Assembly (NCBI GenBank): GCA_026745465.1
Contig: JACYXH010000175.1
Location: 424,501-488,500 of the forward strand
Source of the DNA: Lota lota
Taxonomy: Eukaryota > Chordata > Actinopteri > Gadiformes > Lotidae
Length of the DNA stretch: 64,000 bases
Direction of reading: 5' to 3'
In this document: positions 16,979-63,692 of the stretch, piece by piece
Layout of the letters: the number at the start of each line of letters is the position of its first letter
Position numbering within the stretch: position 1 is the first letter of the stretch
Position numbers and translations under genes: made by a program
The notes under the pieces: generated by a model
What the model was told of the DNA's origin: nothing
What the model saw: the letters and a program-made list of their open reading frames with translations, nothing else
Databases searched by the model: none

Positions 16979-17483
16979 TCAGCAGCCCAGTCCGCTGAAG
17001 GATCCGATTCTTTCCAACCGGACACCAAAGCAGCTCCGAAGCCCACCTTTCTTGTAACGGTTCCACGAGCGCTTGGAAGTACTCACGATGTCCTTGAGGA
17101 AACGTACGATGGCGTTTTCTTTATCTTCCAGCGCGGAATTAGTCGCGTCCTCCGAGTCCCAAGGTTGCTCCGGCCCCGCGGCATCGAACACGGACTTTTG
17201 TGCGTTCGCACCTTTTCCCGCAGCCCCGGTTTCTTCCTGCGTATAATACGGCGCATTACTTTCCTCTTCCAAAAGTTGCGTCAAACTCTGAAAACATAAC
17301 GAGAAAAACAATGAGTTACAATACATGATGGCATAATATTAATAGACCAGTTATTTAAAAAACAAAAACAACAATGAAATAACTTACCTGGAGATTGGAG
17401 ACTGGTTTTGCAGTTCCGAAAGAAAATAATAAAATTGCGGATAAACAGCAAAACCATGCATGAGAAATCATCTTCATGCGCAT
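16979..17483 (-). CDS. cnp3: C-type natriuretic peptide 3 precursor (CNP-3)
   Basis: Minus-strand exons 17483-17388 (32 codons) and 17287-16979 (102 codons plus TGA) give 134 residues. Exon 1 encodes the signal peptide (MRMKMISHAWFCCLSAILLF). The first ATG of three in the same frame was taken. Exon 2 starts SLTQLLEEES. The ring CFGVRLERIGSFSGLGC (residues 118-134) ends at the last Cys with an immediate stop, the defining mark of CNPs. Dibasic KK before GGLRSCFG predicts a 22-residue hormone, as in CNP-22. A donor (GGAG|GTAAGA, last exon base 16969) ten bases past the stop suggests a 3' UTR intron, with a possible acceptor near 16875. CNP-3 is the lineage thought to have given rise to ANP, BNP and VNP by tandem duplication, and linkage with them fits. 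The ring has Glu where Asp is usual (LERIG). Confidence 0.92.
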
Positions 17484-27762: not shown

Positions 27763-29403
27763 TCACATGTGTGGAATGGAGCCAGGCAACAGGTCGGGCT
27801 TGTCCCCTCCACGGGCCCTGGCCTCGCCAAGCGCCGGGCTCTCGTCTCCACCCTGGAGCCCGCCGACCATGGAGCCCAGGGTATTGTAGCTGTGTCCTCT
27901 GACCCCGCCGCCGCAGTGCTCTACCTGGGCCGAGACGCAGAGGCCAGGCCCGTCGTTGGGCTGCTGTGGAGGGATGTGGGTGGTGATGGAGGAGACGATA
28001 GACTTGGGGCTGGAGGGGTTCTCACTCAGGCTGTTGACTGTCAGTGAAGACTGGGGGCCGGAGGAGGGGGTCCAGGGGGTGGATCGTGAGTAGAGGGGGT
28101 AAGGAGAGATTCATGGTTGGTTGAGCAGCAATTACAATTGTATGTTTGTTAGATAGCTCTCTGCCTCACTTGTACTTTTCTTTGGATAAAAGTACTAAAT
28201 ATAAAACTAAATAAAATAGAACTGTACTTAATGTAAATTACTCAGAATTATACAACGGCATATTCTACATCTGTTCAACATGAGGTGATGAGTTGTGGTG
28301 TTGATAAGTGTTATTATACTCACATTAGCCACAGAACCCTGGCTGTTTGCTACTGTTTTCTTCTTCCGGGCCAAGTTGGGGTTCCAGTGGCAGACCAGGC
28401 TGTCGTTCTGGACGCTGTAGTTCTTGTGACCAATCAGCCAGTAGGTGTTCATCTTACCTTTCCCCTGAACGGAGCAGGTGTGAGTTCAACTAGGGCTTAC
28501 GAGTGTTTGAATGAAACAAGACACATTCTATAACGGAAGCATGTACACGAGTAGAGTGTGGCTCATCAACCAGACCTGATCGTAGCCTAGCCTATACGCT
28601 AGAACAGAGATAAAGCTAGCAGAGTCGATATCAGTTTAATGAATTGCTGTGAGCATGTTCAAGTCCTTTGTTAAAATGTGCCTGTGGGAGTATGTGTGGA
28701 TGATGGCTGGTTTAAGCAGCCTTACCTGGCCCGAGTCAGACTGATCGGGCCGGGTGAGGCTGCCTAAACCATCATCCACACACACTCCCACAGTGCCATA
28801 CAAATGAAGTTGATTATTATTGTTGTGTGTCAAGTAAAGTCTCGAGTAAGGGGAACAGCAGGAATCTTTCGTCGTCAACCCGAAAGCCAACATGACCCGC
28901 ACCAAAATGGAATTGTTACGTGAACCGTTTACGTCGAGCGGGGCAGCCGCCGGAAGCCCCCTCACCTTGACCTCGATCTCCCCTCGGAGCTGCAGCTCGT
29001 AGGCGTTGTCCTTCATCAGGGCCAGGTAGGTGGCGGAGCTGGTGTGGATCTTCTGGGCTGGTGATCAGGAGCCACACAATACACACGCTTTCTGCTACCA
29101 TCATGTTATTTTCTTTCATTTCAATTGTATTCTACATTTTCCTGTTGTTTTTGTTTTCCTCAGACATTTCCCATCTGCTCTCTGGCGCTTTAAAGACAAT
29201 TGTTGCAACTTGGTTGAACCCAGTCCAAATGTCAAAGGAGTTGAGCTGAACATTCTTAATGAGTCGTTTTTATTATATGTAATAATACAATAAAGTTGAA
29301 CTAAATGGAATAATACAGACGTTTGTATTGCCATTTCGGAGGGTTGAGTCAGGCGTATTTATACGTATGTTTTGAGTGTAAGGCATGGCTAAGGGCTTGT
29401 TTG

Positions 29404-29476
<73 letters not shown>

Positions 29477-29584
29477 ACCTACGCAGGCTGGTGGACTCCA
29501 TCCTAGAGGCTGTGTTGACCGTATCACCGAACAGACAATAGCGCGGCATCTTGTAGCCCACGATACCTGCCACGCATGGACCTG

Positions 29585-29618
<34 letters not shown>

Positions 29619-31942
29619 GGGAACGGTGACGCCAACAAAGAGAGGTAAGCATTTATATAATGGAAAAGAGAGAGAAACTGAGAGGAGAGAGAGATGTTGT
29701 CTGTGTGTGTGTATGTGTGTGTGTGTGTGTGTGTGTGTATTTGATAGGGATGGTCATATAGATACTCATTATGAAAGACCCCTCCTTCAACATAATGTTG
29801 AAGGACATCAGTGTTGGCAGAAGATTGTAGATTGGATGTGTGTTTTGTTATTTTGCATCCACACAAGGCTGTTCGTTTGTTATCTAGATACCTAAAAAGA
29901 GCCTATATTCTCTAGGTTCTCGCTACATCCTAACTCATTTAGAACTGGTTCATTCTGGTAGCCCCAAAACAATTAGTCATTTACGTTCATTATAAATATG
30001 TATATATATTTAAACACATTGTGCCATCAAAGAAATGTAGAATATAAATTGATTAAGAAAGAGAAGAGATATCTATGGGGGTGGATAAGGGGGGCAGAAG
30101 AGTGTAGCGGCTAGGATGTGGTGTTTGTCTCCTAGTCAAAAGGTTCTGGGTTTGATCTCCAATGTTCACTGCCTACCTGTAGCCGTCCTTGAGCAAAGAT
30201 ACCTAACCCCTACCTGCTCCTAAATCACATGTATTTAAATTCACTACAAATCCACTAAGTCAGAATGAAGCGTATGTTAGATTAATGAATAGTGGTAATA
30301 ATTGTAGGGCTGCATGGGTGTAGCTCACCTGTGTGGATGCCTGCGCGGAGCTGTAGTCTCTGGTTGGGCATGTGAGGGATGGTGACCTGCCGGACTGCAG
30401 CCAGAAGGTCCAGAGACATCTTGGCTATCTCATCCGCATGCTTGTCCCCGTTCCTCTCAGGCAGCCCACTGACCACCATGTAGGCATCTCCAATGGTCTC
30501 CACCTTGGGTCAACCACATAATATCCACCATATCATTATCACCTCAGGTCAACCACAACATTATCCAACTTATCATTATCCCCTTGGGTCAACCAAACAG
30601 TATCCACCACAACATTATCTACCTTATTATTATCACCTTTGCTTAACCACAACAATATTCACCATATCATTATCACCTGAGGTCAACCACAACATTATCA
30701 TTATCCTGATGGTATCCACCTCGGGTCAACCACAACATTATCCAACTGATCATCGTCACCTCAGATCAACGTTGTACCTTGTAGACGTCATAGGAGTTGA
30801 TGCGCGTGTCGAAGCACATATACAGGCTGTTGAGCATCTCCACCACCTGCAGTGGGTTGCAGGATGCAGAGATGGTGGTGAAGCCCACGATGTCGGAGAA
30901 GAAGATGGTAACCTGTAGAAAGATGTACAAAATAAATAGAGCGGCGATGCAGAGGATAAGACAGACCAAGACAGTCTGATTAATATAGCATTAGTCAATC
31001 AGTATTCTGAAGGCTTGAACCAACATTCATAGTCTGTTTCCATTAGTATCCCTTCGTTAGTAGTGGTATAAGCAATTCGAATTTAGTGGCATCTAGAGGA
31101 ACCAACTTGGCAGAAGGACGCATTTTTTTATAAATGTCATAATCGCTATCTTACTTGTAAGCATTGACCTATATTTTTACAGACTAAATATCTCAATATA
31201 ATTTATAAATCTATCAAAAAACCTCATCACTCAACGCTATTGTAGACAATTATATCATTTTGGAATACCTACTGGCACCTTAGAGGCTAGTACAAGCCAC
31301 CGTAGCATCGCCTACGTCGTTGGAAATGGAGGGTTGGGTTATTTAGTTCAGTTGCAATCTACATCTCACCGTTAAATGCCACTAAATCCTACACAATGCA
31401 CCATCCTACAAACTGCAGTAAACTGTCTATTGGAAATTGCACTATACAGCATTTTCTGTGCACCATGTCTTTCTTCTGAAACATTTTACTTCTGTTACTA
31501 TAGCGGTTACTGCTTTAGGTTTTCTTTCCATAACTCGAAATCTGTAACATCTGTGTATCCAGAAAATAATATCAGTGTGAAATGTGCTCACAAAGAGAGC
31601 TTGGAACAGCTGCTTGAAACCTCTTCAATGAGCCAAACGCAATTTTCACCCATATATCCTGTTTTATCTCCTGATGAATATGGAATAGGATAATTACGGG
31701 CAATTACGCAGACAATGGCAACAAAGCTAGCAAATAAGGATCAGGCTAATCTAGTATGTTGCCCAGATCTTGCAAGATAAGCTTTTCACTCCAACATTAA
31801 CAAGCATTTTTAATATGGAAATGTTTGGATCAAGACAACATTGTTATATATTGCTCCAGGTAAAATCACACGCCTGGGGATTACTTCAAACTGTCTGCCA
31901 AACAGTTTGCAATCCCTTCATTCTACCCATCGTTCCATTCAA

Positions 31943-31990
<48 letters not shown>

Positions 31991-34040
31991 TGTGTGTGTC
32001 TGTGTCTGTGTGTCTGTGTGTGTCAGCTTGTGTTTATCTTTTTGTTCATTTCCCATTACGTTGGTTCAGTCTTCAAAAAGGATGTGCTATCAGAACAAGA
32101 AATGTAGAAATGAAAACAGAATTGCCATCTTCCTTCCTTTTTTTCTTCTACCCCATCAAGCCCAAGCCTTACCATTCAACAAGCAAAGCCTTCTAACCGT
32201 GGATGTCATCAACACCATTTTATTTTCCCATACAAAACACATCCCAGTTTGCCTGTAGGCTACCATTCTATATCAGCGTGATGGTGTTGGACTCCCAGCC
32301 GAAAGGTTCCGGGTTCGAACCCTTAATGTCTGCAGTATACCTGTAGGCATCCTCGAGCAAGAGGCCCTAACCCAGCTGCTCATTAAATGCATCGACCATG
32401 GATACCCAGCGGCACGGACCTTGTCGTAGCTCTCCGCCTCCACGTGCTTCTGCTGACGGAGCTGCTTGGCCACCGACTTGGGCAGCATCTGGTGGAGCAG
32501 GTCCTCGGCCAGCCGCCTCTGGCACCGCAGGTCCTCCGTCTTCTCCCTCAGGCTCCGGGCGTAGTTCTGGATCCACTCGGTCATCTGCTTGAAGGACACC
32601 AGCGCCACGGGGTAGATGAGGCAGGCCATGGCCAGCAGGCACACCCTCATGCTCAGCCCCGAGAACACCTCGCGGGACGCCCGCCGCAGGGCGGGCACGG
32701 ACCCCTCCAGGAGGCACTCGTGGGTGTCCCTCAGGGCGTGGAGACCCGCGGCGGGGAGCAGGGGAGGGGAGGTGGGATCGCCGGTGGGTCCGGACGTCTC
32801 CCAGGAGTCGTTGAGGAGGTCGGTTAGGTTAGGCCTGAGGTCCACGTTCTTCAGCCAGCAGTCGCTCAGTGTCTCTGACATGACCCTGGCGAAACCCAGG
32901 TGACTGAGCGTGGTGGTCCACTTGTGGCGGAAGTCCTCCGTCTGGGTCTTCATGGGAGGGAGGTGGGCCACCTGGTGGTTGAGCTCTATGAATGCCTGCA
33001 GGAGTCTAGAGGACAGCACGTCTCTCCAGGCCGAATATTGTTTGGCCATTAATATGTTCTGCTCTGCCGTTCCCCACATGTCGAGGAGTCTGGAGATCAC
33101 CAGGGAAAAGGCCAGTGTACCGTTTTCATACATGTTCTCTTCCTTCCATGTGGCGTTCTGAAGCTCTTGGACGTCGTTGTAAACGTCTTTACAAAAAAGC
33201 GTCAGCTCCTCGCCACAGGAAAGACCGTGTCTGTTGGTAAGACCGGACATGTCATCGCAGAGACCGTAAAATGCGGGTACAATTATTTCAGAGAAGGTAA
33301 TTGCTTCCGACGTTTCATTGCTAAGGTTTTTTATCCATAGACTTCTCATAGCTTGGAGTTTAGCCACAAGTTGCAGTATAGCCATCGACCTGCACGAGGT
33401 CAGTTCATCGTAGGCAGCTTCTGTGGTGTGCAACAGATCAAAGTTGGAGTTGAGGTCAACAGAGACAGATCCTAGCAGGGCAGCGAAAGAGAGAAGGCAA
33501 GCTGCCAAAATGCGACGGACCGAGCGACTGCTGCAAGAACTGGCCAATATGGAACACCTGCGAGGGATGAATACAATGTTTACAATTCATTTTAAATTCA
33601 AGTTCATCCATAGCCTTACACTGTTACAATAGACAAGGACACTTAGTAGCCTGGTATACAACAGTATATTTTGATATTTATACCAAAACAAGCCTGTATG
33701 CTATAATATAGGCCTTATAATAATAATGCATTTATAACTGAACCCAAGCGAAATACTCGTTTTCCCTCGATGAGACCACACCATTTGGCCTGTATGGCCT
33801 ATATAAAATGTATATAACCTCTTTAGCTATTTTAAAACACATACAAACAACTTATTTTTAGATGTAAAAAAAGAAAACACACCTGCAAAATTCACACTCG
33901 CCATCGCCCTCCGTCCTGGGGCCAACTCGCCTCCTCTTGTTCCTCTTGCTCTGGATTTTGGAAAGCGTTCCTTTTAAAGAAGCCGAGGACAAAGTCCCAG
34001 ATGCGAAACATTCTTTTTTCATGAACTTCAACGATGACAT
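27763..34040 (-). CDS. Two-pass membrane guanylyl cyclase with NIT-like extracellular region
   Basis: Minus-strand exons: 34040-33883, 33557-32420, 30912-30778, 30503-30329, 29581-29483, 29057-28966, 28464-28324, 28050-27763 (TGA); 741 residues, all phases consistent. A basic cytoplasmic N-tail (KRNKRRR near residue 36) precedes membrane segment 1 (about 69-88). The extracellular region (about 89-355) has six Cys and sequons such as NETS, NATW and NGT. Segment 2 is about 356-374. A coiled linker ([12 protein letters not shown]) leads to the class III cyclase domain (433-600), with metal Asp439 (FFSDIVGFT) and Asp483, guanine-selecting Glu479 (VETIGDAYM) and Cys551 (MPRYCLFGD), and catalytic Asn558/Arg562 (NTASRMES). 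The C-tail is Ser/Pro/Gly-rich. Expected reaction: GTP to cGMP. There is no ANF-receptor ligand domain and no kinase-homology domain, unlike natriuretic-peptide receptors. The NIT assignment rests on topology and helical character and is an inference. The start ATG has a weak context. Confidence 0.88.
28682..28793. other. Long near-perfect inverted repeat in a cyclase intron
   Basis: Left arm 28682-28734 (starts CTGTGGGAGTATGTGTGGAT) pairs with right arm 28745-28793 (ends ACACACACTCCCACAG) around a loop of about 10 bases, with few mismatches. Either strand would fold to a roughly 45-bp hairpin. Confidence 0.85.
29406..29474. repeat. (GT)n microsatellite 3' of the 99-bp cyclase exon
   Basis: About 34 GT units. 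In the minus-strand transcript this is an (AC)n run starting a few bases after the donor GTAGGT. Confidence 0.97.
29586..29617. repeat. (CA)n microsatellite 5' of the 99-bp cyclase exon
   Basis: 16 CA units. In the transcript this is a (GU)n run ending four bases before the acceptor (GTTCAG). A further GT run lies at 29699-29738. Confidence 0.97.
30090..30260 (+). repeat. tRNA-derived SINE
   Basis: TAGCGGCTAGGATGTGGTGT, GGTTCTGGGTTTGATCTCCA (B-box-like), then CCTACCTGTAGCCGTCCTTG and ACCCCTACCTGCTCC. Forward copy of the family. Confidence 0.75.
30508..30777. repeat. Minisatellite filling a cyclase intron, including its splice-junction sequence
   Basis: The 274-bp intron between cyclase exons 3 and 4 consists largely of 6-7 copies of a roughly 40-bp unit of the type TCAACCACAACATTATCCAC plus CATTATCACCT(C/T)GGG. 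On the coding strand each unit reads GGTTGACCC(A/G)AGGTGG, resembling the intron's own acceptor, GGTTGACCCAAG|GTGG. Confidence 0.8.
31946..32025. repeat. (GT)n microsatellite
   Basis: GT run with TGTGTC interruptions, in the cyclase intron between exons 2 and 3. Confidence 0.95.
32262..32395 (+). repeat. tRNA-derived SINE next to a cyclase donor
   Basis: GATGGTGTTGGACTCCCAGC, then GGTTCCGGGTTCGAACCC (a near-canonical Pol III B box), CCTGTAGGCATCCTCGAGCA and CCCTAACCCAGCTGC. Ends about 25 bp inside the intron following cyclase exon 2. Confidence 0.8.
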
Positions 34041-41030: not shown

Positions 41031-44000
41031 ATGAAAATAGTAATCCTCTCGGCGTTTTGTGCATTTTTCTGTTTTACCCATTTGCATCTGACAAGCTCCG
41101 AAGAGCAGAAAACTCCAGAAGGTATGCGCAAAATATCCTGTACTACAGATGTCATAGACCTACATGCATGCTATTTCTTTAACTGCTTTATTAGACCTGG
41201 GGTCTTCTGATTGTGTTCACGCTTCATTCAGTAGTAGGTAGAATAGTTAAGTTCTGTCGGGAAGTTTCACTGTCCGGTCGAGAAGGTTCCTTCGAACATG
41301 CCGCTGACGTGGACGGTCCTGCCTGTCTCAATGCTGTATTCAAGAAATTGGTAGTTAGCGGCGGTATTATTATTACTACGCGAGAACAAGTCGACTACGC
41401 ATGGGAGAACTGATACTGTTCACATGAAAACTGATTACATCTATTTTGTAGCCTACCCGTGCAAACATTTCCATGAACTGATTTGGCAGTAGCACTTATG
41501 TCCAGTCATTCACGTTCCTCGTTTAGTTAACCGATTCTCACATCATTATATAACTACGTTGGAACCGAATAAAATGTCAATTTGTCAGATAAAATATGTG
41601 CTCATATGGTTGACTTTCCATTAATAACTATTTCGAGCTCAACCAACGTTGGTGTTTATACGCTCTAAATAATGATGATCGTTTAGAGTAGGCTGCCTTA
41701 TTGTTAAGTTCCTACCATTTTCAAAACAATTAAAAACGACATGCATCGTCTAGTTGTCCACACGATTTAACAGCTATAACTTGGACTGACCTATTGCACG
41801 TCGATGACCCCTGATAGGGGAAGTAAAGATTATCCTAATTCAGCACATAACCGTTGTCTTTCTTTCCCTTTACTATCTCACAAATGGCTCGTCTTCCTAA
41901 AGACCTCCTAGTTTTGACAGTCGCCACCGCAGAGACAGATGGCTTCAGCCGTTTCCTGAGGTCTGCAAAGCACTTCAACTACACTGTCAAGGTAAGGGCA
42001 AATACCTGCAAGTAGATTGACGTTTATCTGAAAGTTGAATTCCTCCTCTAATGCTTTGGCTATAGGGCGAAATGACAAGGTTGATGGTAAACCACTGATA
42101 AAAATCTGATAGTCCTTCAGGCCATGGTTTAAAGTCGACCTGAAGAAAAGAGGTGGTGTTAAGTTGTCTTCTGTGCTCTGTGGGGGTAAAAGGTGCTGGG
42201 TCGCGGGGCGAAATGGCAAGGGGGGGACTACATGGCCCCTGGAGGAGGTCAGAGGATACGCCTCCTCAAGGAAGCTCTGGAGGAGATGAAGGTGCAGGAG
42301 CAGACCATCCTATTCGTGGACAGGTAGGTCTCCTAGTTCTCCTGGTGCTGCAGGCTGGATGATTATATAGTAATTTAGCCGTAGAGAAACCTTTTAGATA
42401 CATGTCATTAATATGCAGGTAGGGGCTATACATCTTCAAAATGATGCCTACAGATTAAGCTGCAGACACTGGTGTTTGAACCCAGTACATTTAGACTGAA
42501 AGTCAAACTCTAACCACTATACTGTCCTGCTCATCTAAAACAGTGGAAACTACTATTTAAAGACTATGTAATAGATGCCTCTCTCCCATAAAACACTGAG
42601 CATGAACAAAGACTTTACTGACACTGAACAAGGAGCTAGTAGGGGTTAGAGCATGTTGCTCAAGTATGCCTACGGCAAGTCTGTAGATATTTGGGTTTAA
42701 ACCCAGGACTAGTCGACTTGGAGTCAACCCCCCTAGCCACTAGACTATCCTGCCCACATGCTCGTGTCTCTGTCGCAACTCATTCATGGTTATTATGATC
42801 AGGGAATAGATGCATGATAACTGAAAAGCGTTTCTCCCTTTCAGTGCCTTTCCTATGACTGATGCCAGACGTGCCATAGGTGCTAGCTAAACGCTACAAT
42901 AAGGAACAGTGGCACCTCATTATATGGAGCCACCTTTCCTATCAAATTGTAATTGGCTTCACATAGCCGAGCCCTGCAATGGCTCTGTACAGTTTCCCAT
43001 AGTTATCACTGCTCCTCGTTTCTCCTCAGCTATGATGTGGTGTTTGCCTCTGGGCCCAAGGAGCTGCTCAAGAAGTTCAAGCAGACCGGGCACAGGGTGG
43101 TGTTCTCCTCTGAGACCCTCATCTGGCCCGACAGACACCTGGAGGACAAGCACCCGTCTGTCCGGGAGGGAAACCGCTTCCTGGGGTCGGGAGGTAGGTC
43201 CACTGGTGGGGGTGGGGATGGAGGTGGTGGTGATGGTGGGGTCCGAAGGTAGGTCCGCTGGTGGGGGTGGGGGTGGGTGGTGGTGGTGGTGGTGGAGATG
43301 GAGATAGTGGTTGTGGTGGTGGAGTCGGGAGGTAGGTCCGTTGGTGGTGGTGGTGATGGAGGTGGTGATGGAGATGGTGGTGGAGGTGTTGGTGGGTTAG
43401 CCGTTTTTCTTGGTAATATAGAAATATACTGGGACAGCACCAGAATCAGAACCAGAATAGCATCAAGTGTTTGTTTCACCAATGATAGTGTTTTACCTAA
43501 TGCTTGATTGTTCAGTAACCATTTAGAAACAAATTGTAACTACAAATATTGTAGAAATACAAACTGTTGTGTATTTCTGTTTAAACAGATGTGCACATTA
43601 TACATGTGTTGTACATTGTCTTTGAATAAACCAATACCTTGTCAGTATGTTTGTCGGTCAGTTGGTTTTTGTCAATGTGTCAGTGTTGGTAACCATAAAG
43701 GAAAAAAATAGCTTAGCTTGGAGTTTTTAATGATATGCTGCATATTCCCTTGAAGGAGTTTACAGTGTCTTTTTATAGGCTGGAAATAGCAGGCTTTCCT
43801 CTGGGCAGGAAAACGGCACTGAAGGCACAGAGACCAGCTTTTCATTACCTGACAGGGTCCAGTTTGATAAATATCACATCATTTTAGTTTTACTGATTAA
43901 ATAATAATCATAATTTTTTCATGTGGTTTGAATAAGGTAATCTGTATACACTGTGTCATTATGTCATGTGTGTGTGCCATAACACGTTTTTGAACATACA

Positions 44001-45014
44001 TTGTGTTCAATTATTCACATCAAAGATGGCCAGTGTAACCTCTGGTATGGCCACTGTTATCTGACCAAGGTAGTGGAATGTGTTGCCATGGTAGCTTGTT
44101 AAACTATTTGATATTGGCTGGTGCCAATTTGGTCAGACTTTACAAAGCAGCATTACAATGTCTCTTGACCCTTCTCTGTCTTCAGGTTTCATTGGCTACC
44201 TTCCTAATGTCAAGGAGATGGTTGCTGATTGGACAGGAGAAGACCACGACAGTGACCAGCTGTTCTTCACTAACATCTATATCAACCCAGAAAAAAGGGT
44301 ATGCATACTTATTAAACTTATTAATATGGTATAATAAACGGTATAAATATACAAAACTAGTTTTGTGAAGTATCTCACAACATTGTTTTACCTTCCCCGT
44401 TTCAGAAATCCATAAATATCACACTGGACAGCAAATGCAGATTGTTCCAAAACCTCAATGGAGCCCTTGGTAAGTGCTTTTACACACAGAAGCCAGAAAC
44501 ACAACACTTTAGCACACACTAAAATATCTGCTATGACTGTTATTTTCCTTTTACACTAGAACTTGGTTGTATTGCTAATGACTGTAAAACACTATTTACT
44601 AACAGTGTTGTAACCTCATCTTAAAGATATTGACTGGATCGCTTACTGCTTACAACTATGAGCATATGATTGCTGTTTAAAAAGCTCAAGGCAAGACATA
44701 CTCTTTCAGAATCACAGCTAACATATTTACACAGACTTTAACATTTGCCGCTGACATATTTACTTAGCCTTTAGCAATTAAAGCTAATGTGTGAGAAACA
44801 AATAAAGCAATATAGATCCCTGGCTAAGAGATTGCTAGCCTGTTTGGAACAATGCTATTAAGACTAGCCCGAGGCCACCTTTCTGTAATTGTTCTGCTGA
44901 GATAAGCTACTTTTCCTGGCTGGGGAAACCAAGGTTGTTATTTATTATTTATTCCCCAGGTGGTAGGGAACAGTTAATGGCTGTGGTGTAGAGATGAAGG
45001 AGAGAGAGAATGAG

Positions 45015-45052
<38 letters not shown>

Positions 45053-48000
45053 CTGCTGCCACTTCCTTCACAGGGTTGCCATTGGTTGGTTGCCCCCAAG
45101 CTGAGACATGGGGGCAAACATTGCAGAAACATGTTTTGATAAAAGAAAAAGTGGGAAGGACTTATCGTTGATTGTCATTGTTAATGAGCACTGCAAGTTT
45201 AGGCATGATTATCCTCCGAGAGCTCTTTCGCTCCGTCTCTCTTTCCCTCTTTTCTTACTCTCCTTCACTCTGTTTGTTTAACTGCTTCCCCCCTTGCTCT
45301 CCTTTGCCGCCTTAGTCAGGAATGTATAGTTTGCAAGAGAAAGAGAGTGAGAGAGAGAGACAGAAGGATCTCTTTTACACAGAGATCCCGCAATATTACA
45401 GTAAAGAAGATCCAGCGTTGAGCTGGTTCTGCTTTCTACACAGAACCCACTAAAGCCAGCGGATTTAAGGCAGAACAACAAGGCCCCCCCTTGTTTGTAC
45501 CTTTCATACAGAAGGCGAGGAGGAATAATGTTCCGCGGCTTGAACAGACTGTAACAGACCGCTAGTGCGTTACAAGGCAAAAGAGGGGGACCTAGAGCCA
45601 GAGAGACACACTGAGAGAAGGAGGGAGAGAGAGGGGAGCAGAGAGAGGGATATTGTGTGAGAGAGAGAGAAGGGGGGGGGGGGGGCACAGAAAGAGAGAG
45701 ACGGATATGTGCCTGAGGTCACGTAGCCTGATGAAATGAAAAAAAAAAGTGAGAGGAGTAAAGAAGGAGGGAGAAGGGGAGGAAGCAGGAAGGCTGGTGA
45801 GCTAACAATTTTCCATGCCTCCCCCAGATGTGTTGGAGAGAGCCAAGCTTTGCTGTAAAGAACAGCTGTATTGTGTGAGCGGGTGTCGCTTAATCCTTAA
45901 TCCTAAAGGAACACTGGACTTCCTTCGACTTTAATACTACCATTTGTTGCTTTATCTTTATCATAGCTTGTCACTTTTATTTTGACAGTACTTCAATTAC
46001 ACCAGCATAGTTGCGTTTAGGTCAAAAAATGTACAATTAGATGAAGTGAATAACGACAGTTATGAGGTTTGATATTAACTGTATGTGTTGGATATTTTAA
46101 ATTGGTTATTAATTAATAGAAAGTCTGTGTGTATGTGTGTGCTTGCTTGTTGTTTTTTGTGTATGTGTGTGTGCTCGTGTGTGTGCGTGGTTGCTGTTGC
46201 ACGTGTGTGTGTGTGTGTGTGTAGATGAGGTGGTGCTGAAGTTTGAGGACAGCCGGGTACGGGCCAGGAATGTGCTGTACGACACACTTCCTGTCATCAT
46301 CCATGGCAACGGACCCACCAAGGTAGCCTCATTTTAATAGAGTTAGGAACTAACCAGTATAAAATGAATGAATGAGCTTAAGTAGTAAAAGGAGTCATTT
46401 ATATCAGTTGAATCAGTCATATTCCCAGCCAAAAAGGTATTGGGTTAGATCCCCAATGTTGGATAAAAACATCTGCTAAATGACATCATTGTGTCCCCAG
46501 CTGCAGGTCAACTACCTGGGCAACTACATTCCCAAGGTGTGGACCTTCGAGACCGGCTGCACTGTCTGTCACCAGGACCTGAGACCTCTCACTGGGATCC
46601 AGGTGAGCCAACTCTGAACCACCTGTGATGTGCAATCTCACTTTCTTAGAGAGCGTGTACAGCATGCATTACCCGCCTAGCAACAGATGAGGTCATACTT
46701 AATGAGCCCCTCTGTGTGGTGATAGTGTTATAAATGCCTAGCCTGACCCACACTAGCTGTCCTTAAATGAGAGCATCACTTAGTGACGTTTTCTGGAAAG
46801 ATACACGGATGGAAAGTCTCCTGGATGATTCTATCTGTGCTGTCTTTGTTCTGCTTGTGTTTACACAAAAAAAAAACAGGACTGTGTTTACTATACTACC
46901 CATCATGACGGCACTTTACACTACCTTGCACTCTCTGCTTGGATGCCAGATGCATTTTCTTGTACTTTTACTGTTCAACGACAAAAAGGAAAAATCCAAT
47001 TCAATAAAGACACAGACCATTCCACTTGGAAAGACATTAAACCACCACAGATTGTGTTAGTGAGATGTAAAGTTGAGTGGACCTGCTTAAATGGCAGAAC
47101 CTAAATGGCAACAGCAGTTTGATTCAGAACATTGTTTTGTTTGTCTCTGGTTGTGTTTGTGTCTCCAGGAGAGTGAATTTCCGCTGGTGATGATTGGTAT
47201 CTTCATTCAGCAGCCCACCCCCTTTGTCACCGTCTTCTTTGAACGCCTACTGAATCTCCAGTACCCCAAGAACAGACTTAAACTCTTCATATACAACCAG
47301 GTGAGGGTTGAATGCCTGAGGTAACTCCACTCAAGCTATGCGAATGATTAACCTTCACCACCATCTGCAAGATGTATAATAGCATATTAATAGCATAATT
47401 AGCTTTTTGCAGACATGGAAAATTAAGATATCCGAAGTTAGTATTGTGCTGTGAAGTGTGAGTGATCAAGGTACACTACACTGCACTACACCCCACTACA
47501 CCTCACTACACTACACTACACAAAATGTATTAAATCAACCATGAGATAGCTATCAGGCTAATGCCATCCGTTTATCTATCCTCCACCATCATCCTTCTCG
47601 TTTGTTTAGCGTTGGGTGCGATAGTATTGCACTGCAGGGTTCAGTGATCCTAAACTACCGGGTTTGGCGACCTACCAGGAAGCAGAGGGGCTGGTGGTGG
47701 GTGGGGTCTACAGTAGTGTGCAACCGTGGCTCGTGTGGGAATCAACCATACCAGGAATGGGACCATTTTTTTCCTTGATCAAACGTGTGCTAGCTTGCAT
47801 TGTTTACATTCATCGTCGGCCAGGAATGTGGCAGCTAATAGCTAACCTACTAAGGGCCCGTGGAACCACTGCTGGTCATATGTACAGACACAGCCTTGAT
47901 TTACACTACAGAGATAATGGATAGTAGCCGCTAAGGTCAGGATATGTAGAAAATGGTGAACTAAAATGAGAAATAATTCATAATAAAGTGACTTCGGGAG

Positions 48001-51000
48001 GTGGAGAAATGCTGGAGAATGTTCCCACATACTGTTGTGTTGTAGTGGTACTCTAGTTATCCCTAATAAAGGTATCATTACTGGACGTATACAACACATA
48101 CCTATACAATTCAAATCATAGACCTTTGGTGACAGCTGGTGTAGCCGACCTGGGTTTAGACTGCAGGTTAAGCAGACAGCTGGGGGTGCTGGGGAGCTGA
48201 GGTTAAGAGGGACAGCATGGTGCCAAGCAGCAGACAGACCCAGAGGAATGCAGGGTCACAGGCAGATCGTTTTATCTATTTTAGGCACGCTTCAGCAGAC
48301 CTGGTTGAGTGGGATATACAAAGTGTTTATTTATTATATATTCCTACATTAAAGGGTCTCAAAAACAGCATATAACATTACATTATGGTCTGGAGACTCC
48401 TTATCTCGGATCCAGCAGTCCTACTATGTTATAACACCTTGTTTCCTGTTTCAGTACGGAGTTGGGGACAAGGAGATTTGAGGGGAATTTCCAATCAGGC
48501 ACTTTCAGATCCCCAATTGGTCGAAAGAAATATGAAGCGAAAGAAAGTGAAACGCCCTTTTCACCCAGATTAGTGCTTGTCTGCTTTCAGACTTTAGATT
48601 TATATAAATCTAAAGTCTTATTTGTGTGACTAGGAGACACCCAATAGAAAGCATTGTGTATGTGATCTCACAGAGGACTATGGAAACTATGGTACTGTTG
48701 GTCAAGCAAGCTGAGATACTTATATAGTACAAATAACTTAGCCTAGTAAGCTATTTTATTTTATTTTTGGACATATGTCAGCCATTTAGTTTTGGACATC
48801 GAGACCACAATCACTTCACAGGTCCTACCATATGCAAATATGTGATAGTATTAAGTTACTGAGGTCACGCAGATGTTTTTGAGACTCTTTACTTACACAG
48901 CAGACCTTTCGAGGAGAGGTCAAACCGTGACTGAAAGGGTTAAAGAGCAGAGCTGGGTTCTTATGCACTTCAAAACACAGCTCTATGGCACAACACTTCG
49001 TAAAGCACATCACACACAACACTTCTTAAGAGCTTAGAGCCTGGTTTGTTTTAATGGTCTACATTTTGCCCACACAGCACTTTGTACTTCCTCCAGCTTT
49101 TAATCGTAAATTTAGAATTTGCTGATGTTGAATCATAAAATCAATCGTTACATTCATAGTATATGAACGTTTTTCCAAAAGAATTGCTATAATATCACTG
49201 GAAGGTCAGCATCAACATTCCTTATGATTATTAATATACATAGTATATATTATACTGTTTAGTCGTTTTAGCAGATGATTTTATCCAAAGACAACGTACA
49301 GTGAATTCACATATATGTCATCTTTAGCAAGATGCCCTAACCCTATACCTGGTAGAAGGATACGGCATCTTGCTAGAGATTTCCTACAGGTTAGACTGCA
49401 GACCTTGGGGAATTAACCCAGTACTTAACATAGGCTAACATAATAGGCAAATAATAAACATGACTATACCTCTTCCTCTACCAGGAGAGCCACCACCAGA
49501 AACAGGTGGACTCCTTTCTGAAGAGCCATGGCAATCTGTACCAGGACGTCAAGCTGGTGAGCCCAGAGGGAGCAGATACCAACAGCGTCTCCTCGCGCAA
49601 CCTTGGCCTGTGAGTTGTTTTTTTATATATTAATATATTTTATTCATGGCCGTTTTGTGCCTTGGATGGCACAGTGAAGACAGACAGGAGAGTGGGGTTG
49701 ATGAAGAGAGGATAAGACATGTAGCACAGGACTGAAGGTAGGAATCAAACTTGCTAAATGTGGATAGCGCACTTGCGGGTTGAGCCACTGAAGCCTCCTA
49801 CCCACTAGGTGACTTTTAAAGTTGGGGCAGACTTCGGCAGTACCCACTAATGACCGGGCTTGACGATCAGTCTTGCCTTGCTGTCGGGTTGTTGGTCCAC
49901 CCTAGGCGACTGGGGACATGTGCGTTCCACACATGAGGACTCTACCTTCAGGTTCTCCGCGCCTTCTCTGAAAACTCGCCCAAAAACCCCAAAATATATG
50001 TGTTTATCTGTGTGTTTATTACAGTGTGTGTTCCTTTCATTGGGGATTCATTATATTTAGTTTGACCATACATTTTCTGCAGCAGCGATTCTGTAGGAAC
50101 GCACTGCTGCAAATATGTCAGGTCTATTCTTCAAAAGTCAAAGTAAAAACAGAAATAGCATAAACTGTACAAATGGAATATGGATGTATCGACACCTTTA
50201 TCAACTAAATGTCTTGTTGCTCTTGTAGTTATGCAGCAGTTGAAGCCATTTCAAATTACAAGGAAGAAAATCATGGGTTTATGTCTGATTGTCAACATTT
50301 AAATCCACATATCTGAGTCATCTGTTACAAGGGACGGGCCGTTTGTTTCTTTCCAATGGCTATTGCCACCGTACTCGCACAATTCAGTCTCAGTCCCCCC
50401 CCCACACTACGCGAGTCAGGCCCGATAATATCAAACCGGTTTGAAAAGATCTTTGCCCTGCCGACTCTACTGGAGGGCGGTCCACCCACACTACACGGCA
50501 TTCAGAGCCGACTTCAGCCCCGATTGAATGTATGCCATATCAATGCTGTTAGAATGTGTTTTTCGTGACGTGTGTATTCTGTCCTTATTCCAGAGATTTG
50601 TGTCGACAAGACAAAGAGTGTAAATATTTCTTCAGCTTGGACGGCGAAGTGGTCCTGAAGAACAAGGACACGCTCAAAATACTCATCGAACAAAACCTGT
50701 GAGTATATATACCAATTCATCGGAATGTCCCTAATGTGCTTAATTCATCTGTAGTAAGCAACTATTTATTACTAAACACTTTGTTTAGTTTAGTTTAGTT
50801 CTAAAGGAAGGTATTTGTGTCAAATGCAGAATGGGTTTAAAATAGTAAAGTATATTGTTGTTACTGTAACAAAAAACAGTTACTAATTGTAAGGGTCCTT
50901 TAGCACTACATAACCATTTATACCACACATCTTTTTTTACACAATAAGCAAGAATTGATATATAATATTTTTTATTTACTTCACTTACTTACTTCTAATG

Positions 51001-54000
51001 ACTTAGGATTTTCCCCATGGCAAGAATTGAAATATATAAATGTTTTACTTACTTCATGTACTTGTTAAGAATGAGCATTTTCCCCATTGGGAACATGGAA
51101 GGGGAAGTATTGAAGTAAAAACAGATGATACCAAACATTAGTGGTGATGCTCCCCTGTACCTAACCTCTCCTGGGTGTTCTCTCTGTATCTACCCAGGCC
51201 CATCGTGGCTCCCATGATCACGAGGGCCGGCCGGCTGTGGAGTAACTTCTGGGGCGCGCTCAGTGCTGACGGCTTCTACGCCCGCTCCGAGGACTACGTA
51301 GACATTGTCCAGGGACGCAGGGTGTAGGTTATCATGTTGACATCCTAGCTGAGGGAAACAAAACGTTTTAGTGTACTGTGTAAAGATAGCCTGTTCACTC
51401 TGTAAACAGAGTTAAGCTAAATTTGTGGTCGCCGTGATGCACCGTTTGTGAAGTGCGTGGACAGTCCCTGCACGGCCATGGCATTTATAGTCGCGGTTTG
51501 GCCGTGACATTGGTGTGGACAACGCAGTCCACACGTCATTTTTGGTTGGCGCCGGCTCACACAGTTTGCGCACTGCGACTATAAATTTGGTTTACGTAGT
51601 GTATCGTTAGCGTATAGTGTATGTCCAGTGTAACAATGTATCCTGTACTGTGAACATCTGCGCTGCAGTGTGTGTGTTAGTGCGTAGTGTAAGCCCGGTG
51701 TAAATACTGTGCTGTGGCTGCAGGGGAGTGTGGAACGTGCCCTACATCTCCAGTGTGTACCTGGTGAAGGCGGACGTCCTACGCTCCGATATCTCAGACT
51801 ACGGCCTGTTCAGCTCAGACACACAGGATGCGGACATGGCCTTCTGCACCAGTGTTCGCAGCAAGGTTGGATATGAATCATTCCTTGTGTTGTTTTTCTT
51901 GTAGTTTAATAGGACTAGGACTTAATACACCTGTTTTTTCTAATCATAGTCAAGTTGTATTGTCCAATGTGCAGTATACTACAGCAGGAAAAGCAGGAAA
52001 GGTAGTCTAGGTATACAATAAGATATCAAATATTGTATGAAAATGTGCAGGTACAAATATTTACAAGACATTCTGTACAACAAAAAATGCCGTTGCTAAT
52101 GCAGAAAAATATTTACCAGCACGTATTGGCGGAATCATTTATATATTTTAAATCGTATTTTCACCCATACAACTTTACCAACCCTTGCACCTGATGTGTC
52201 GTCCTCCATTGAATCTCAGGGGGTTTTCCTGTACGTTACCAACATGCACTCGTTTGGGCGCATCCTGTCTGTGGAAAACTACCAGACTGGGCACCTCCAC
52301 AATGACCTCTGGCAGATCTTCGAGAACCCTGTGGTAAGATTCATCTCACAAAGACACATTTTCATAAAGATTACCTCTTTTCTTTTGTTTGTGTACGTTT
52401 TTTCCGTTGAGATTCCATACGTTGAAATGAACCAATTTAACTATCATTTCCTCAGGACTTCGAAGAGCGGTACATCCATGAGAATTACTCCCTCATCATG
52501 AGAAACAAGCTGATTGAAACTGTGAGTCACTATAAATTAAGACTAACTCCAAATAAAGAGTAACTTCAAAGTAAAGGCCACTGAAATATTAACACTTAGC
52601 TACCATTGTTAAGCCATTAGTCTAGTGCAGCGGTTCCCAGCCTTTGACTTTAGGTGTACTACTAAATTGTCATTCAGACCTTTCTTGGACCACCTCATAT
52701 GCAAATAGTAAAAAAATTATAATTACACATGCAGTGGTTGAGCAGAGAGTGCCAGTGCCCCCTTTATACCCAATTATGACCGCAAGCAGCAATGCTGCTT
52801 ATGCTTTCCAGTGTGTTTATACAGCAAACACAAATTAACACAAAACATATGATGGTTTGCACAAAGCAACACTATTTTTGAAGTAATAACAACCCATAAT
52901 AGTTTATTTACTGACAAATATTTGTGATATATTTATTTTCAATTATCTCTATTATTTTGTTATTATTGTATCATTTGTCTATTTGTTTGACTCCCCGCGA
53001 AAGGTCCTTCTCATTAATGACATGTATCCAAAACAAAATTCACTGCCAGTCGCTTTGGATAAAAATCGGTGAAATTACCAAAAGCGAAATTATGTCAAAT
53101 AATCTTTAGTATCTCAAAATTACAGTTGGGCAAACATTACCTGTTAAGCAGCTGCATATACAATATTTAAGTTTTTGATGAAAGTGTTTTATGTGTGCTT
53201 CTTCCAGCCCTGCCCTGATGTCTACTGGTTCCCCATGTTCTCGGAGGTGGCCTGCGACCACTTTGTGCAGGAGATGGAACACTTTGGGCAGTGGTCTGGG
53301 GGCAGTACCGTGGTATGTATTAATACACCATCAGGATCAGACACCAAGTCATTGGGTAAATCGTGTATACCAGAATAGTGGAGTCAAGCAAGAGGATTAG
53401 AAGGAAGGCTTTTGTTTTGTTTAGCCAGCCAGTCCATATCTTAAACCAATCAAATAAGCAGTTGATTGGATTATAGTAGAGGTTAAATCTATGCTGATGG
53501 GGACATTTTCGATCAGCCATATATTGTTGAAATCTCTGAAAACCTCAGTGAAAAAGCTGGTAAAGACCCACAGCTCCAAAAAGAAAATAGGGAAAGAAAG
53601 GAAGGACATATGTCTATATTTACACAATGTCATAAATATCATCTACATATTCATATCCATAACACCCAACTTACTTCTTACTTACTAGTGCTTTAAAATG
53701 GCCCTTTTCCTCTGAACACGTCATTATGTGTATTTGGTGTTTTGCTGTAAACTTCGCCAACTCTGTGGTGGGCACTTAAAGACTGACCATTACAGCAGCT
53801 TCACATTTTATCACAGCCACGTGGGCAATGATTTAATCACAGATTTCTGCACAAACCAAGCCGATTTATTTTTAAAGAAAGCAACCCATACCTTTTCTAA
53901 TGTGAGTGGAATGCTTTTGTCCTGAAGACGTTCAGCAGCTGAATGCATCGGTTTCACTCAGGGACGCACAACCGAGGATTTAACCAAAGATTGCAGGTTA

Positions 54001-57000
54001 TATCAAAGCAGATGCTCCTTTTTAAAGTGACTTTTACTTTTATTTAAATTGATTGGACTGCTTTTGTCCTGAATTTAGCCACTTCTAATCATAGTGTCTG
54101 CTTTGTTTTTGTTATTTGCTATCGTTACATGTCTGCACGATGATCGGTGTGGGGTTGTGGTGATAATGATCGGTGTGGCGTTGTGGTGATTGGTGTGGCT
54201 TTGTGGTTATGATGATCGGTGTGGCGTTGTGGTTATCGGTGTGGTGATTATGATCAGTGTGGCGTTAGGGTTATAACCTAGCTAACCCTGGAATGAGAGA
54301 TCCCACTTCTGTGTTCCTTCTCAAGCTTCCTTCCCTTTAGATGGTTAGGGTTGGTGCGGGGGTTGTATAACATGGGCCTGTGAAGCCCTTTGAGGCTGTA
54401 ACTGTGATAAAGGGCTATACAATTACAATTAATTTGACTTGAGCAGCTGAATTCATCAGTTTGAGTTATTTTGGTCAGCTCAGTTCAAAGTAAAATAGCA
54501 AGAAAAAACTAAAAGATAGTCATACTAATAACGAAAATGACATACAAACTTGTCCTGGCAAAGTTCAGCATCTGAACCCATCTTTCGTCCGTCTGCATCT
54601 TCCAGGACAATAGGATCCAGGGGGGTTATGAGAACGTGCCCACCATCGACATCCACATGAACCAGGTGGGCTACGAGAAGGAGTGGCACAAGCTGCTGCT
54701 GGACTACGTTGCTCCCATCACAGAGAAGCTATTCCCTGGGTACTACACCAAGGTAAGGCCTGGGAGCTAGTGGACGGAAGCGCCATTTCATATCTTTTAA
54801 GGATGATGGTTGTTAATTTAGAAAGTTAGGAAACTCTGTTCATTCAACAAAAAACAAAAAAAATCAATCAATACATTTAATAACACAGGAAATAATGTAT
54901 ATTTATATATAATCTAAATCTAAACCTAATAATATAATATTTTGGTTACATTTCAATTAATTTCTAACACATTATGCAATGCCATATTCATACCAGTATA
55001 CTGATATGAATAGTCAAAAATGTTCACGATTTATAAAGACACATTTAGGTAATTTTTTGTCTTACATGAATGTATATTGATAATTATTGGATCTAAACTA
55101 TTTACAGCAAAAATGCAATCTATCAATATTTGCATATATATATATATAATTCATTCCTAACTGGTGTATGATGATGCATATTATGTGGCCAGATGTGTTA
55201 CTCTGTACTGAACCCCCCTGCTCCTCCTCCTACTCCTCCTCCTCATGTCTCCCCTCATCAGTGTAACTCTACCATGAACTTTGTGGTGAGGTACAAACCT
55301 GACGAGCAGCCCCTGCTCCGCCCTCACCACGACGCCTCCACTTTCACTATTAACGTAGCGCTCAACACCAAAGACGTTGACTACCAGGTAAATGGTGGGC
55401 CGGCCCGTAGCGGTAACCGGCCTTCACGAGACGGGACGTACTGTAGCCCAACCTGTAGTCCATCCGTCCTGTCCCTTTTTTCCTTCTCTTCTCTCTGTCT
55501 TCCCGGGGAGAGTGAATGCTGGTGTGATGAGGCAGAGAAAAGGGGGGGGGGCGTCGAGGTTAAACTGAAACGCGAAGACACAAACACTCAGACCCACACA
55601 AACAAACAAACACACACACACCCCTCTCCCCAACCACATAGCGGTTCCTACGATACACTCGCATGACTCTTTTCTTCCCCTCTGTGTGTTTGTGTTTGCA
55701 GGCTCAGTTTGACTTGGCTTTTGTAGTTAGATATAAGCCAGACGAGCAACCTTCTTTAAGGCCGCACCACGATGCCTCGACATTCACTATAAATCTTGCA
55801 CTCAATCAAGTGGGCCTTGATTACCAGGTGAGTGGTTGTGTGTGTGTACAGGGATCCCCTGACATAAACAGTTTGACGTAAGATCATAATCATATTTTAT
55901 AGGAGAGCAATGGACCTGGGGTTCAGGTTCTGGTTCTGGTAGAATAAAGTAGTTACAAATAAAACACAAGCAAAGAAAAAACGGACAAGGTAAGGTGAGA
56001 GGACATTGATAACCTTTGGACTTTTCTCATGCATAACAGTATTTTAAAGAGTTCTACACACTACACTACTTTATAAAGTTTGCTGTCATCTATTGGTTAA
56101 AAAATGGTTATCGCTGGTACACTAAATTGGCTTAATGTAGGTATGGGTGTTTTTATCCTATAGATGGAAGATGCTTAACATTTGTACACCATTTGTGCAA
56201 ATAATAGCAATTGTATGACCTTGACACCTGTATAAATATGCAGAAGTAATATAAATGAATAAATATGATACCACAAATATATTTATATAAAGAATAAGTA
56301 TAATAATAAAGCATAGGTAGGGAATTTTCTATATTGAAGCTAAATGCAAAGCATGGTGCTTGAATGTTGTTTACAAATATCCAATGACAAAATATGACTA
56401 AATAGCATGTTTAAATGTGTCATTTCATGACATTTCATGTACATTCATTCAGTTAACTCTGTGTTTGTCATTCTGCTCTGCATGTCAAAGACATTACACT
56501 CCAGAGATTTGTTCGTGTGAATCTGTCGTGTCCTTCTCCCTCTTGTAAAATGATAAATTGTAGCATGTGTGATGATATTTAAGAAATGTAATATCAATGT
56601 AATTATCTATGCTCATTGTCTCCAAGCTACCATTAACTGTGCTAGAATATTATTTCAATCCTTGAACCCAAGTTATTTAGTAAGTCAACGATATGAGATC
56701 TAGATCTAAATATTTCAAGGAAATATAAGTTATATTAGGTGTCCTTTATCCAGCATTGTGTACTAAAACGTTATGTAAACTATAATATGAAAATGCCATC
56801 ACAGCCATCACTTTTTCAAATTATTCGAGATTATGACTCGTCAACCAAGAAAATTTATTTCTGTCGAACTCTGGTCTGTGGAGTAAAATCAGATATCGTA
56901 TAAAAATGATGGCTACAGTATACCAAAGCCATATATGGTTCTGATTCCAACAGTACAGCCTGATCTAAATTCCCTTGTTTCGTTTGTGTTTCCCTGTTAT

Positions 57001-57171
57001 TCTGCTGACCGGCAGGGTGGGGGTTGTCGATTCATCCGCTACAACTGTTCGGTTGAAGCGCCCCGAAAAGGCTGGGCCCTCATGCACCCTGGCCGGCTCA
57101 CCCACTACCATGAGGGGCTCCCCACCACCGGGGGCGTCCGATACATCGCCGTCTCCTTTGTGGACCCCTGA
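41031..57171 (+). CDS. plod1: Procollagen-lysine, 2-oxoglutarate 5-dioxygenase 1 (lysyl hydroxylase 1)
   Basis: Exons: 41031-41121, 41903-41991, 42193-42323, 43030-43193, 44186-44298, 44406-44469, 46225-46322, 46501-46602, 47169-47300, 49485-49609, 50594-50698, 51198-51323, 51724-51865, 52220-52333, 52456-52521, 53208-53312, 54606-54752, then 55262-55387 or 55702-55827, and 57016-57171; 731 residues (human 727). The signal peptide ([20 protein letters not shown]) directs it to the ER lumen, where it hydroxylates collagen lysines using Fe2+, 2-oxoglutarate, O2 and ascorbate. The N-terminal glycosyltransferase-like region has FVDSYDVVF. The C-terminal dioxygenase has His660 and Asp662 (RPHHDAST), His712 ([11 protein letters not shown]) and Arg722 (GVRYIAVSF). 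The ATG at 41031 is the first that gives the signal peptide. All phases agree. The duplicated exon 18 is described separately. Confidence 0.96.
42400..42540 (-). repeat. tRNA-derived SINE (reverse copy, plod1 intron 3)
   Basis: GATGCCTACAGATTAAGCTG, GGTGTTTGAACCCAGTAC, CTCTAACCACTATACTGTCC. Same family as at 18.9 kb. Confidence 0.7.
42640..42757 (-). repeat. tRNA-derived SINE (second reverse copy, plod1 intron 3)
   Basis: TGCTCAAGTATGCCTACGGC, TTTGGGTTTAAACCCAGGAC, CCTAGCCACTAGACTATCCT. Adjacent to the previous copy in the same orientation. Confidence 0.7.
43185..43410. repeat. GGT-rich minisatellite containing copies of the plod1 exon 4 donor
   Basis: GGTGGT-type sequence in which GGAGGTAGGTCC (true donor after 43193) recurs as GAAGGTAGGTCC (after 43248) and GGAGGTAGGTCC (after 43331). 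Unit spacing 55 and 83 bp. Confidence 0.85.
45016..45051. repeat. Poly(C)36 tract
   Basis: Uninterrupted C run in plod1 intron 6, 1.2 kb before exon 7. Confidence 0.97.
46120..46222. repeat. (GT)n-rich tract abutting the plod1 exon 7 acceptor
   Basis: A GT run of 10 units (46203-46222) is followed directly by the acceptor AG at 46223-46224. Further GT-rich sequence lies upstream. Confidence 0.9.
49255..49430 (-). repeat. tRNA-derived SINE (reverse copy, plod1 intron 9)
   Basis: TTTTAGCAGATGATTTTATC, CAAGATGCCCTAACCCTA, TACAGGTTAGACTGCAGACC. Same family as other copies. Confidence 0.6.
50370..50530. repeat. Shared repeat, copy in plod1 intron 10
   Basis: CAGTCTCAGTCCCCCCCCCA, CGAGTCAGGCCCGATAATAT and CACACTACACGGCATTCAGA match the segment at 58590-58710. 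Confidence 0.7.
54125..54270. repeat. Degenerate minisatellite in plod1 intron 16
   Basis: Units of the type GATCGGTGTGGCGTTGTGGT with TGATAAT spacers, about six copies. Confidence 0.75.
54275..54445 (+). repeat. LINE-tail-like repeat
   Basis: GTGAAGCCCTTTGAGGCTGT then AACTGTGATAAAGGGCTATA and AATTAATTTGACTTGA form the recurrent tail of teleost LINE/SINE elements. Confidence 0.55.
55262..55387 (+). CDS. plod1: plod1 alternative exon 18a (catalytic His-x-Asp, variant form)
   Basis: 126 bp, phase 0 at both ends, acceptor CTCCCCTCATCAG, donor GTAAAT. It encodes 42 residues beginning [17 protein letters not shown] and containing [16 protein letters not shown], ending DVDYQ. It shares 30 of 42 residues with exon 18b. 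It adds a Cys and an N-glycosylation sequon (NST) absent from 18b. Its opening (MNFVVRY) is closer to what I recall of PLOD2/PLOD3 than of PLOD1. GC-rich codons. Iron ligands and neighbours are intact, so it looks functional and not decayed. Confidence 0.85.
55702..55827 (+). CDS. plod1: plod1 alternative exon 18b (catalytic His-x-Asp, PLOD1-like form)
   Basis: 126 bp, phase 0 at both ends, acceptor TGTGTTTGCAG, donor GTGAGT. It encodes [20 protein letters not shown] then [20 protein letters not shown] and YQ, almost as in human PLOD1. It lies 314 bp after exon 18a and has the same length. Codons are more AT-rich than in 18a, so the pair is an old duplication kept by selection. Joining both would stay in frame but duplicate the active-site strand. 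Confidence 0.92.

Positions 57172-61804: not shown

Positions 61805-63692
<1,888 letters not shown>

Follow-up and report, generated by a model that had tools for sequence, protein, structure and literature searches.

The lysyl hydroxylase 1 gene (plod1) of Lota lota contains two versions of its exon 18, 18a and 18b, lying next to one another within the 64,000-nucleotide stretch of DNA that we analysed (hereafter the window). We consider it probable that the two are ancient homologous exons of which each transcript would most likely carry one, giving two lysyl hydroxylase 1 (LH1) isoforms that share a catalytic core. That both exons are used in mRNA, and that they exclude one another, we infer. 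LH1, LH2 and LH3 are usually viewed as three genes with three roles, and if plod1 does have two catalytic exons at its disposal, splicing would let a single gene tune lysine hydroxylation and thereby collagen cross-linking. It would also supply a natural pair of enzymes 12 residues apart, mostly in a dimer loop or beside the catalytic strand, and the pair could serve as a test case for the control of LH activity by dimerisation and the capping loop.

Tandem homologous exons in plod1

The window (C175:424501-488500) was examined together with the whole genome assembly (575 Mb, 867 contigs). Within it plod1 spans 41031..57171 on the forward strand (as do all plod1 features below) and has 19 exons, with exon 18 present twice. 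All exon borders could be placed at GT-AG sites, with a provisional human LH1 sequence as the guide, and the spliced model runs from ATG to stop, yielding 731 amino acids and a single terminal stop with either exon 18, in keeping with the earlier suggestion that one gene could make two isoforms. The acceptor of exon 3, at 42193 (GGGGGTAAAAG), has the lowest pyrimidine fraction of the 19 plod1 acceptors (0.44) and therefore the true border may differ from the model. The 18b-form protein contains the PLOD glycosyltransferase-like domain (GT_PLOD, PF25342, 3.4e-111) and the C-terminal 2OG-Fe(II) oxygenase domain (2OG-FeII_Oxy, PF03171, 1.5e-12), and alignment to LH3 places the H-x-D...H iron triad and the 2-oxoglutarate (2-OG) tyrosine in both isoforms. 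Exon 18b, previously described as PLOD1-like, is indeed identical to the provisional human LH1 at 37 of 42 residues and to human LH3 at 30 of 42. Orthology to PLOD1 rather than PLOD2 or PLOD3 is further supported by the separate plod2- and plod3-like loci of this genome and by the neighbouring genes, namely mfn2 on the downstream side (matched to mitofusin-2 in the PDB, E 5e-17) and on the upstream side a DUF2152 gene, which we take to be KIAA2013; the gene order is presumably that of the human PLOD1 neighbourhood.

Other features of the window lie outside plod1. Three natriuretic-peptide coding stretches (ANP family, PF00212) follow in a row on the reverse strand (9870-10211, 13741-14151 and 16979-17335), and the third stops at the ring cysteine, presumably the habit of C-type peptides; teleosts have a natriuretic-peptide gene cluster. 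A guanylate-cyclase-like gene (29349-33586, reverse strand) includes an open stretch of 437 residues, towards whose end an HNOBA match falls marginally short of the curated cut-off (23.3 versus 23.4 bits); sequence farther along is cyclase-like, as judged by eye. Shortly after an mfn2 coding stretch at 61862-61984 comes a TCTG tetranucleotide array of 906 bases and 225 copies (62028-62933), with long open stretches in all three forward frames.

Exon 18a (55262..55387) and exon 18b (55702..55827, the LH1-type copy) are exactly where the sequence-only reading had put two adjacent 126-bp exons of phase 0-0 with good splice sites. Both are 126 nt long, GT-AG and in phase 0-0, an AG precedes each, and their donors are CAG/GTAAAT (18a) and CAG/GTGAGT (18b). 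Between them is a normal intron of 314 nt (55388..55701), and on either side lie exon 17 (54606..54752, 147 nt, phase 0-0) and exon 19 (57016..57171), the latter containing the stop codon and, as the alignment indicates, the third iron ligand. Adjacent, homologous, equal in length and frame and with intact splice sites, the pair is by its anatomy a case of tandem homologous exons, a known kind of arrangement in the parts of the literature we cite (PMC9741552, PMC6071210).

The reported agreement at 30 of 42 residues was confirmed by direct comparison. The 12 differences occupy exon positions 1-6, 18, 32 and 36-39; the earlier description, which named the six opening residues and the AxxxxD loop, is correct but omits positions 18 and 32. 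Nineteen of the 30 identical residues are encoded by different codons, and the base differences (45 in total) are distributed as 12, 8 and 25 over the three codon positions. The synonymous difference (pS = 23.5/27.5 = 0.855) is saturated and beyond correction, and dN is 0.26. When the same 45 changes were placed randomly on 18a, none of 20000 trials retained at least 30 residues together with an open frame. The synonymous saturation, the dN and these simulations indicate that 18a and 18b have long been maintained as protein-coding exons, which agrees with the old duplication under selection that had been proposed from strong protein identity despite different codons; with the branch lengths given below, pS and dN point to protein-level constraint on both copies. 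In a tblastn search of the window with the provisional human LH1, exon 18 was the only one with a second strong match (E 1e-13), all remaining extra matches having E 0.46 or weaker. Chance similarity of 18a is ruled out by this match and by the simulations, as is decay as a full account of 18a by the open frame, the good borders and a modest branch. A common origin was not seen in the intron flanks of the two exons (local scores of 14 and 12, as against maxima of 16 and 15 in shuffles). GC3 is 0.43 in exon 18b and 0.71 in 18a; the other plod1 exons range from 0.52 to 0.84, except the first (0.43).

Age and origin of exon 18a

Genome scans with 18a or 18b as query led to the same exon-18-like places, at least four in number: 18a, 18b, one on contig C637 and one on contig C536. 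Flanking exons show that the latter two belong to PLOD genes, and exon comparisons with LH3 and with a provisional LH2 suggest that the C637 gene is plod3-like and the C536 gene plod2-like. Each 9.9-kb paralog stretch has just one exon 18, of 126 nt, flanked by exons 17 and 19 (other matches at E 0.15 or above), and the search for a comparable pair in these genes, as had been recommended, thus returned one copy in each. Ahead of its complete exon 13 (L006 2542 on), the plod3-like locus (L006) also has a partial repeat of that exon's beginning, 30 bases long and with ag/gt borders (L006 2376-2405), apparently a truncated duplication.

Three exon positions (5, 6 and 37) mark the LH1 type. They read L, A, V in 18b and the provisional human LH1, and M, N, K in 18a, in the plod3- and plod2-like exons of this genome and in human LH3 (PDB). 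The provisional human LH2 has L, N, V, agreeing with 18a at position 6 only, and mimivirus L230 has L, A, Y, so that the older state at these positions is not beyond doubt. The earlier statement that 18a opens like PLOD2 and PLOD3 stands for positions 5 and 6 and fails for residues 1-4 (C-N-S-T), which are peculiar to 18a among the eight sequences compared.

The main tree test, in which the plod2 and plod3 of this genome were included, set five trees against one another in eight runs (four models, each with two taxon sets). All eight runs rejected a duplication later than the fish-tetrapod split (p-AU 0.0031-0.0198), and a tandem duplication within PLOD1 before that split had the best likelihood in every one of them. 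An early single run with five trees also gave a low p-AU for a recent duplication (0.027). An earlier set of 20 runs comprised the provisional LH1 and LH2, LH3 from PDB and L230, leaving aside the paralogs of this genome; here recent duplication was rejected at 0.05 in 10 runs, and in none of the four with LH2 as sole outgroup. Free bootstrap support was low (57/100 for 18b, LH1 and L230 against the rest), with L230 drawn to LH1. On the rejections in the main set (8/8, as against 10/20 in the earlier one) we discard the idea of a young duplicate as improbable. The trees suggest that 18a is ancient, with an age beyond the fish-tetrapod split, and since all dating tests draw on 42 residues and on a provisional human LH1 exon, this age is suggestive and not final. 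When the tree was constrained to the tandem topology, 18a lay 0.21 and 18b 0.31 (0.25 + 0.05) away from the node that they share, making 18a the less changed copy. Human LH1 presumably has one exon of the exon 18 kind. A pre-split age means that 18a either disappeared on the way to human LH1 or was acquired early from a sister gene.

The second of these routes, a copy made long ago from plod3 or plod2 into plod1 by ectopic transfer or conversion and still in place as an alternative exon, departs from our preferred explanation in origin only, and we regard it as a genuine possibility of lower probability. The plod3-like exon is nearer to 18a (32/42 residues, 90/126 bases) than 18b is (30/42, 81/126), but 18b matches the plod3-like exon at just as many residues (32/42). 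Trees that place 18a next to or within PLOD3, or next to PLOD2, survived the main test (p-AU 0.09-0.53); in 11 of the 12 five- and six-sequence runs of the earlier set no tree did better than one placing 18a next to LH3, and tandem-in-PLOD1 was best in 1 of 12; the tandem tree was rejected in one run (WAG, without LH2, 0.044); and the best tree of the early single run had 18a outside LH1+LH2. The lack of intron homology seen between the copies also suits a transfer. Against it, the tandem tree had the best likelihood throughout once the paralogs of this genome were included, and 18a displays no special synonymous closeness to them: its pS to the two paralogs is 0.75 and 0.55, as against 0.49 between plod2 and plod3 themselves, which speaks clearly against any recent transfer.

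Place of the swap in the enzyme

By alignment, exon residue 1 corresponds to LH3 646 and residues 22, 24 and 11 to His667, Asp669 and Tyr656, i.e., two iron ligands and the 2-OG tyrosine of LH3 as given in passages of PMC6082870; all three are the same in 18a and 18b. Over exons 17-19 both forms match the LH3 structure 6FXK and its kin (E 1e-74 for the 18b form, 3e-75 for the 18a form). The first six exon residues, all of them swapped, equate to LH3 646-651, and the loop after the strand to LH3 681-684. Should transcripts take one exon or the other, the exchange would alter residues within and immediately behind a loop that runs into the catalytic strand, belongs to the dimer contact and meets the capping loop of the partner (LH3 646-651), together with the post-strand loop (LH3 681-684). 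According to passages of PMC9453210, the LH3 loop 640-650, which connects a helix with the beta core, contributes part of the dimer interface, and in LH3 simulations the capping loop contacts the other monomer at residues 640-646 and 643-648.

Exon 18a also carries an N-S-T sequon at exon residues 2-4 (LH3 647-649, the asparagine being protein residue 640), giving the whole protein five N-x-S/T sequons in the 18a form and four in the 18b form. LH3 differs in having no sequon at 647, and the plod3-like gene of this genome in having a single exon 18. Glycans added near the LH3 dimer interface (T672N, R714N) shift the enzyme to the monomer with loss of LH activity, and the interface mutant L715D behaves like the wild type, again in passages of PMC6082870. 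T672 falls within exon 18, and both of these glycan mutants involve sites other than the 18a sequon. Given the overlap of the swapped residues with LH3 dimer and capping-loop contacts, and given the LH3 glycan mutants, we infer that the choice of 18a may alter dimer pairing or active-site gating, an effect that we favour over direct substrate choice. If the 18a sequon were glycosylated, ordinary dimers could possibly be blocked; glycosylation at this site, beside a folded strand, may fail. It is conceivable, if rather doubtful, that the pair constitutes a splice-controlled switch of dimerisation or glycan addition, in which 18a would predate the fish-tetrapod split, have been lost toward human LH1, exchange the residues of the dimer loop and carry an N-glycan to the interface. 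The gene would then produce the standard LH1 dimer as well as another form, one that differs in its partners or its gating or lacks hydroxylase activity.

Choice between the two exons

Under our preferred explanation, in which transcripts take 18a or 18b, exon 18b would furnish the standard LH1 form and probably the default, since its donor is the highest-scoring in plod1 (12.4, by a simple consensus score built on provisional frequencies). Exon 18a would be a retained alternative with the plod2/plod3-like state at the positions that mark LH1. Its own donor scores 9.2 (seventh of 19), and the difference between the two donors would be in keeping with a quite unlikely alternative, namely that both exons can be spliced but one, most likely 18a, is rarely used and represents a leftover of the old duplication with no present role. 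However, 18a has preserved its catalytic residues and its open frame, its borders agree in frame, and its amino-acid branch is modest although synonymous change is saturated. As regards a possible distant branch point, the AG-free stretches before 18a and 18b (69 and 60 nt) are the third and fourth longest of the 19 acceptors, and a crude branch-site pattern matched once before 18a but nowhere before 18b.

Reading frame does not enforce exclusion, because at 126 nt apiece the inclusion of both exons or of neither preserves it; with both, the C-terminal piece has 184 residues and one terminal stop. Use of one exon at a time is nevertheless most likely, as judged from the sequence, because double inclusion would repeat the iron-binding strand and double skipping would remove it. 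That both exons are routinely joined, so that LH1 is lengthened and its catalytic strand repeated, as the frame and the normal 314-nt intron would permit, is very improbable: two copies of one catalytic beta-helix strand would stand in a row, and no such insertion occurs in the lysyl hydroxylase PDB alignments examined (five for the 18b form, three for the 18a form). An assembly artefact, with 18a or the pair derived from, e.g., a mis-joined paralog, is scarcely credible, as we found nothing in its favour, the plod2- and plod3-like exons 18 lie on other contigs with different sequence, and the window is inside a 6.9-Mb contig.

As a rule of thumb, a spacer of 314 nt is too long for simple steric exclusion. 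We also reject competing RNA structure as a demonstrated mechanism, since neither intron pairing nor the spacer fold was better than in shuffled sequences. None of seven pairings between the introns beat their shuffles: five had z values from -0.71 to 1.09 (at the lowest, -0.71, 21 of 100 shuffles were as low) and the other two 1.53 and 3.83, i.e., weaker than shuffles. The fold of the 314-nt spacer had a z of 0.30, with 58 of 100 shuffles as good.

Within the spacer, motif counts by PTBP-type and hnRNP L-type definitions reveal two candidate regulatory elements, whose functions we can only propose. The first is a pyrimidine cluster rich in UCUU, UUCU, CUCU and UCUC (55467..55501), a putative PTBP-type element with 10 motif counts per 35 nt, second among 19 introns after the 1755-nt intron between exons 6 and 7 (11). 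The second is a CA-rich tract (55587..55621), a putative hnRNP L-type element with 12 counts per 35 nt, the highest of the 19 introns. Exon 18b is in addition flanked by UG runs, one a UG-rich stretch in its 3' splice site region (55681..55698) and the other a UG repeat just past its donor (55834..55847), and the CA tract and these runs form 14-15-nt arms that are 93% complementary, both being simple repeats. UG runs are found as well at the acceptor of exon 7, where the run is longer, and at the exon 18 acceptor of the plod3-like gene; as simple repeats that recur at other acceptors, those near 18b are leads and not specific. Mouse Plod1 is among the exons skipped under TDP-43 gain of function (PMC5983119), and the UG runs around 18b are likewise only a lead toward TDP-43, because the passages of that paper name no Plod1 exon. 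The "exon 18" mentioned there belongs to Sortilin 1, the skipped Plod1 exon being unstated in those passages, and the "exon 18" in the passages of PMC11975878 is a COL1A1 exon.

The plod1 pair resembles, in equal length, phase and adjacency, the tandem duplicated exon substitutions or mutually exclusive exons of which passages of PMC9741552 describe 236 human events and PMC5740500 is a survey. It is also like the events of PMC9741552, as far as its passages describe them, in being apparently ancient and in retaining the frame and the core residues while the surroundings vary; what sets it apart from the human events is its location in plod1 and its dating, by the tree tests, to before the fish-tetrapod split, with human LH1 presumably having a single such exon. 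The string "plod" has a count of zero in the main text of both papers. Among the open-licence literature matches listed, none described a duplicated or mutually exclusive plod1 exon, although fish annotations may already list both isoforms, and the sole splice variant of the PLOD family met there was LH2 exon 13A (LH2a/LH2b), likewise a case of alternative splicing that alters a lysyl hydroxylase. According to passages of PMC8055892, this PLOD2 exon is an omittable cassette of 21 residues in an accessory domain and raises glucosyltransferase activity. Exons 18a and 18b, in contrast, are alternative copies of the catalytic strand, which is not omittable.

Viral, bacterial and archaeal contigs were also scanned for relatives of exons 18 and 19, and one viral-contig locus (L001) was recovered as a distant match, with 59% identity over 29 residues; no fish sequence was among the results, in line with the make-up of these collections. 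All matches in the phage search were below 60% identity, and the named ones among the 20 listed of 167 comprised 2OG oxygenases, hypothetical proteins and a protein resembling prolyl 4-hydroxylase.
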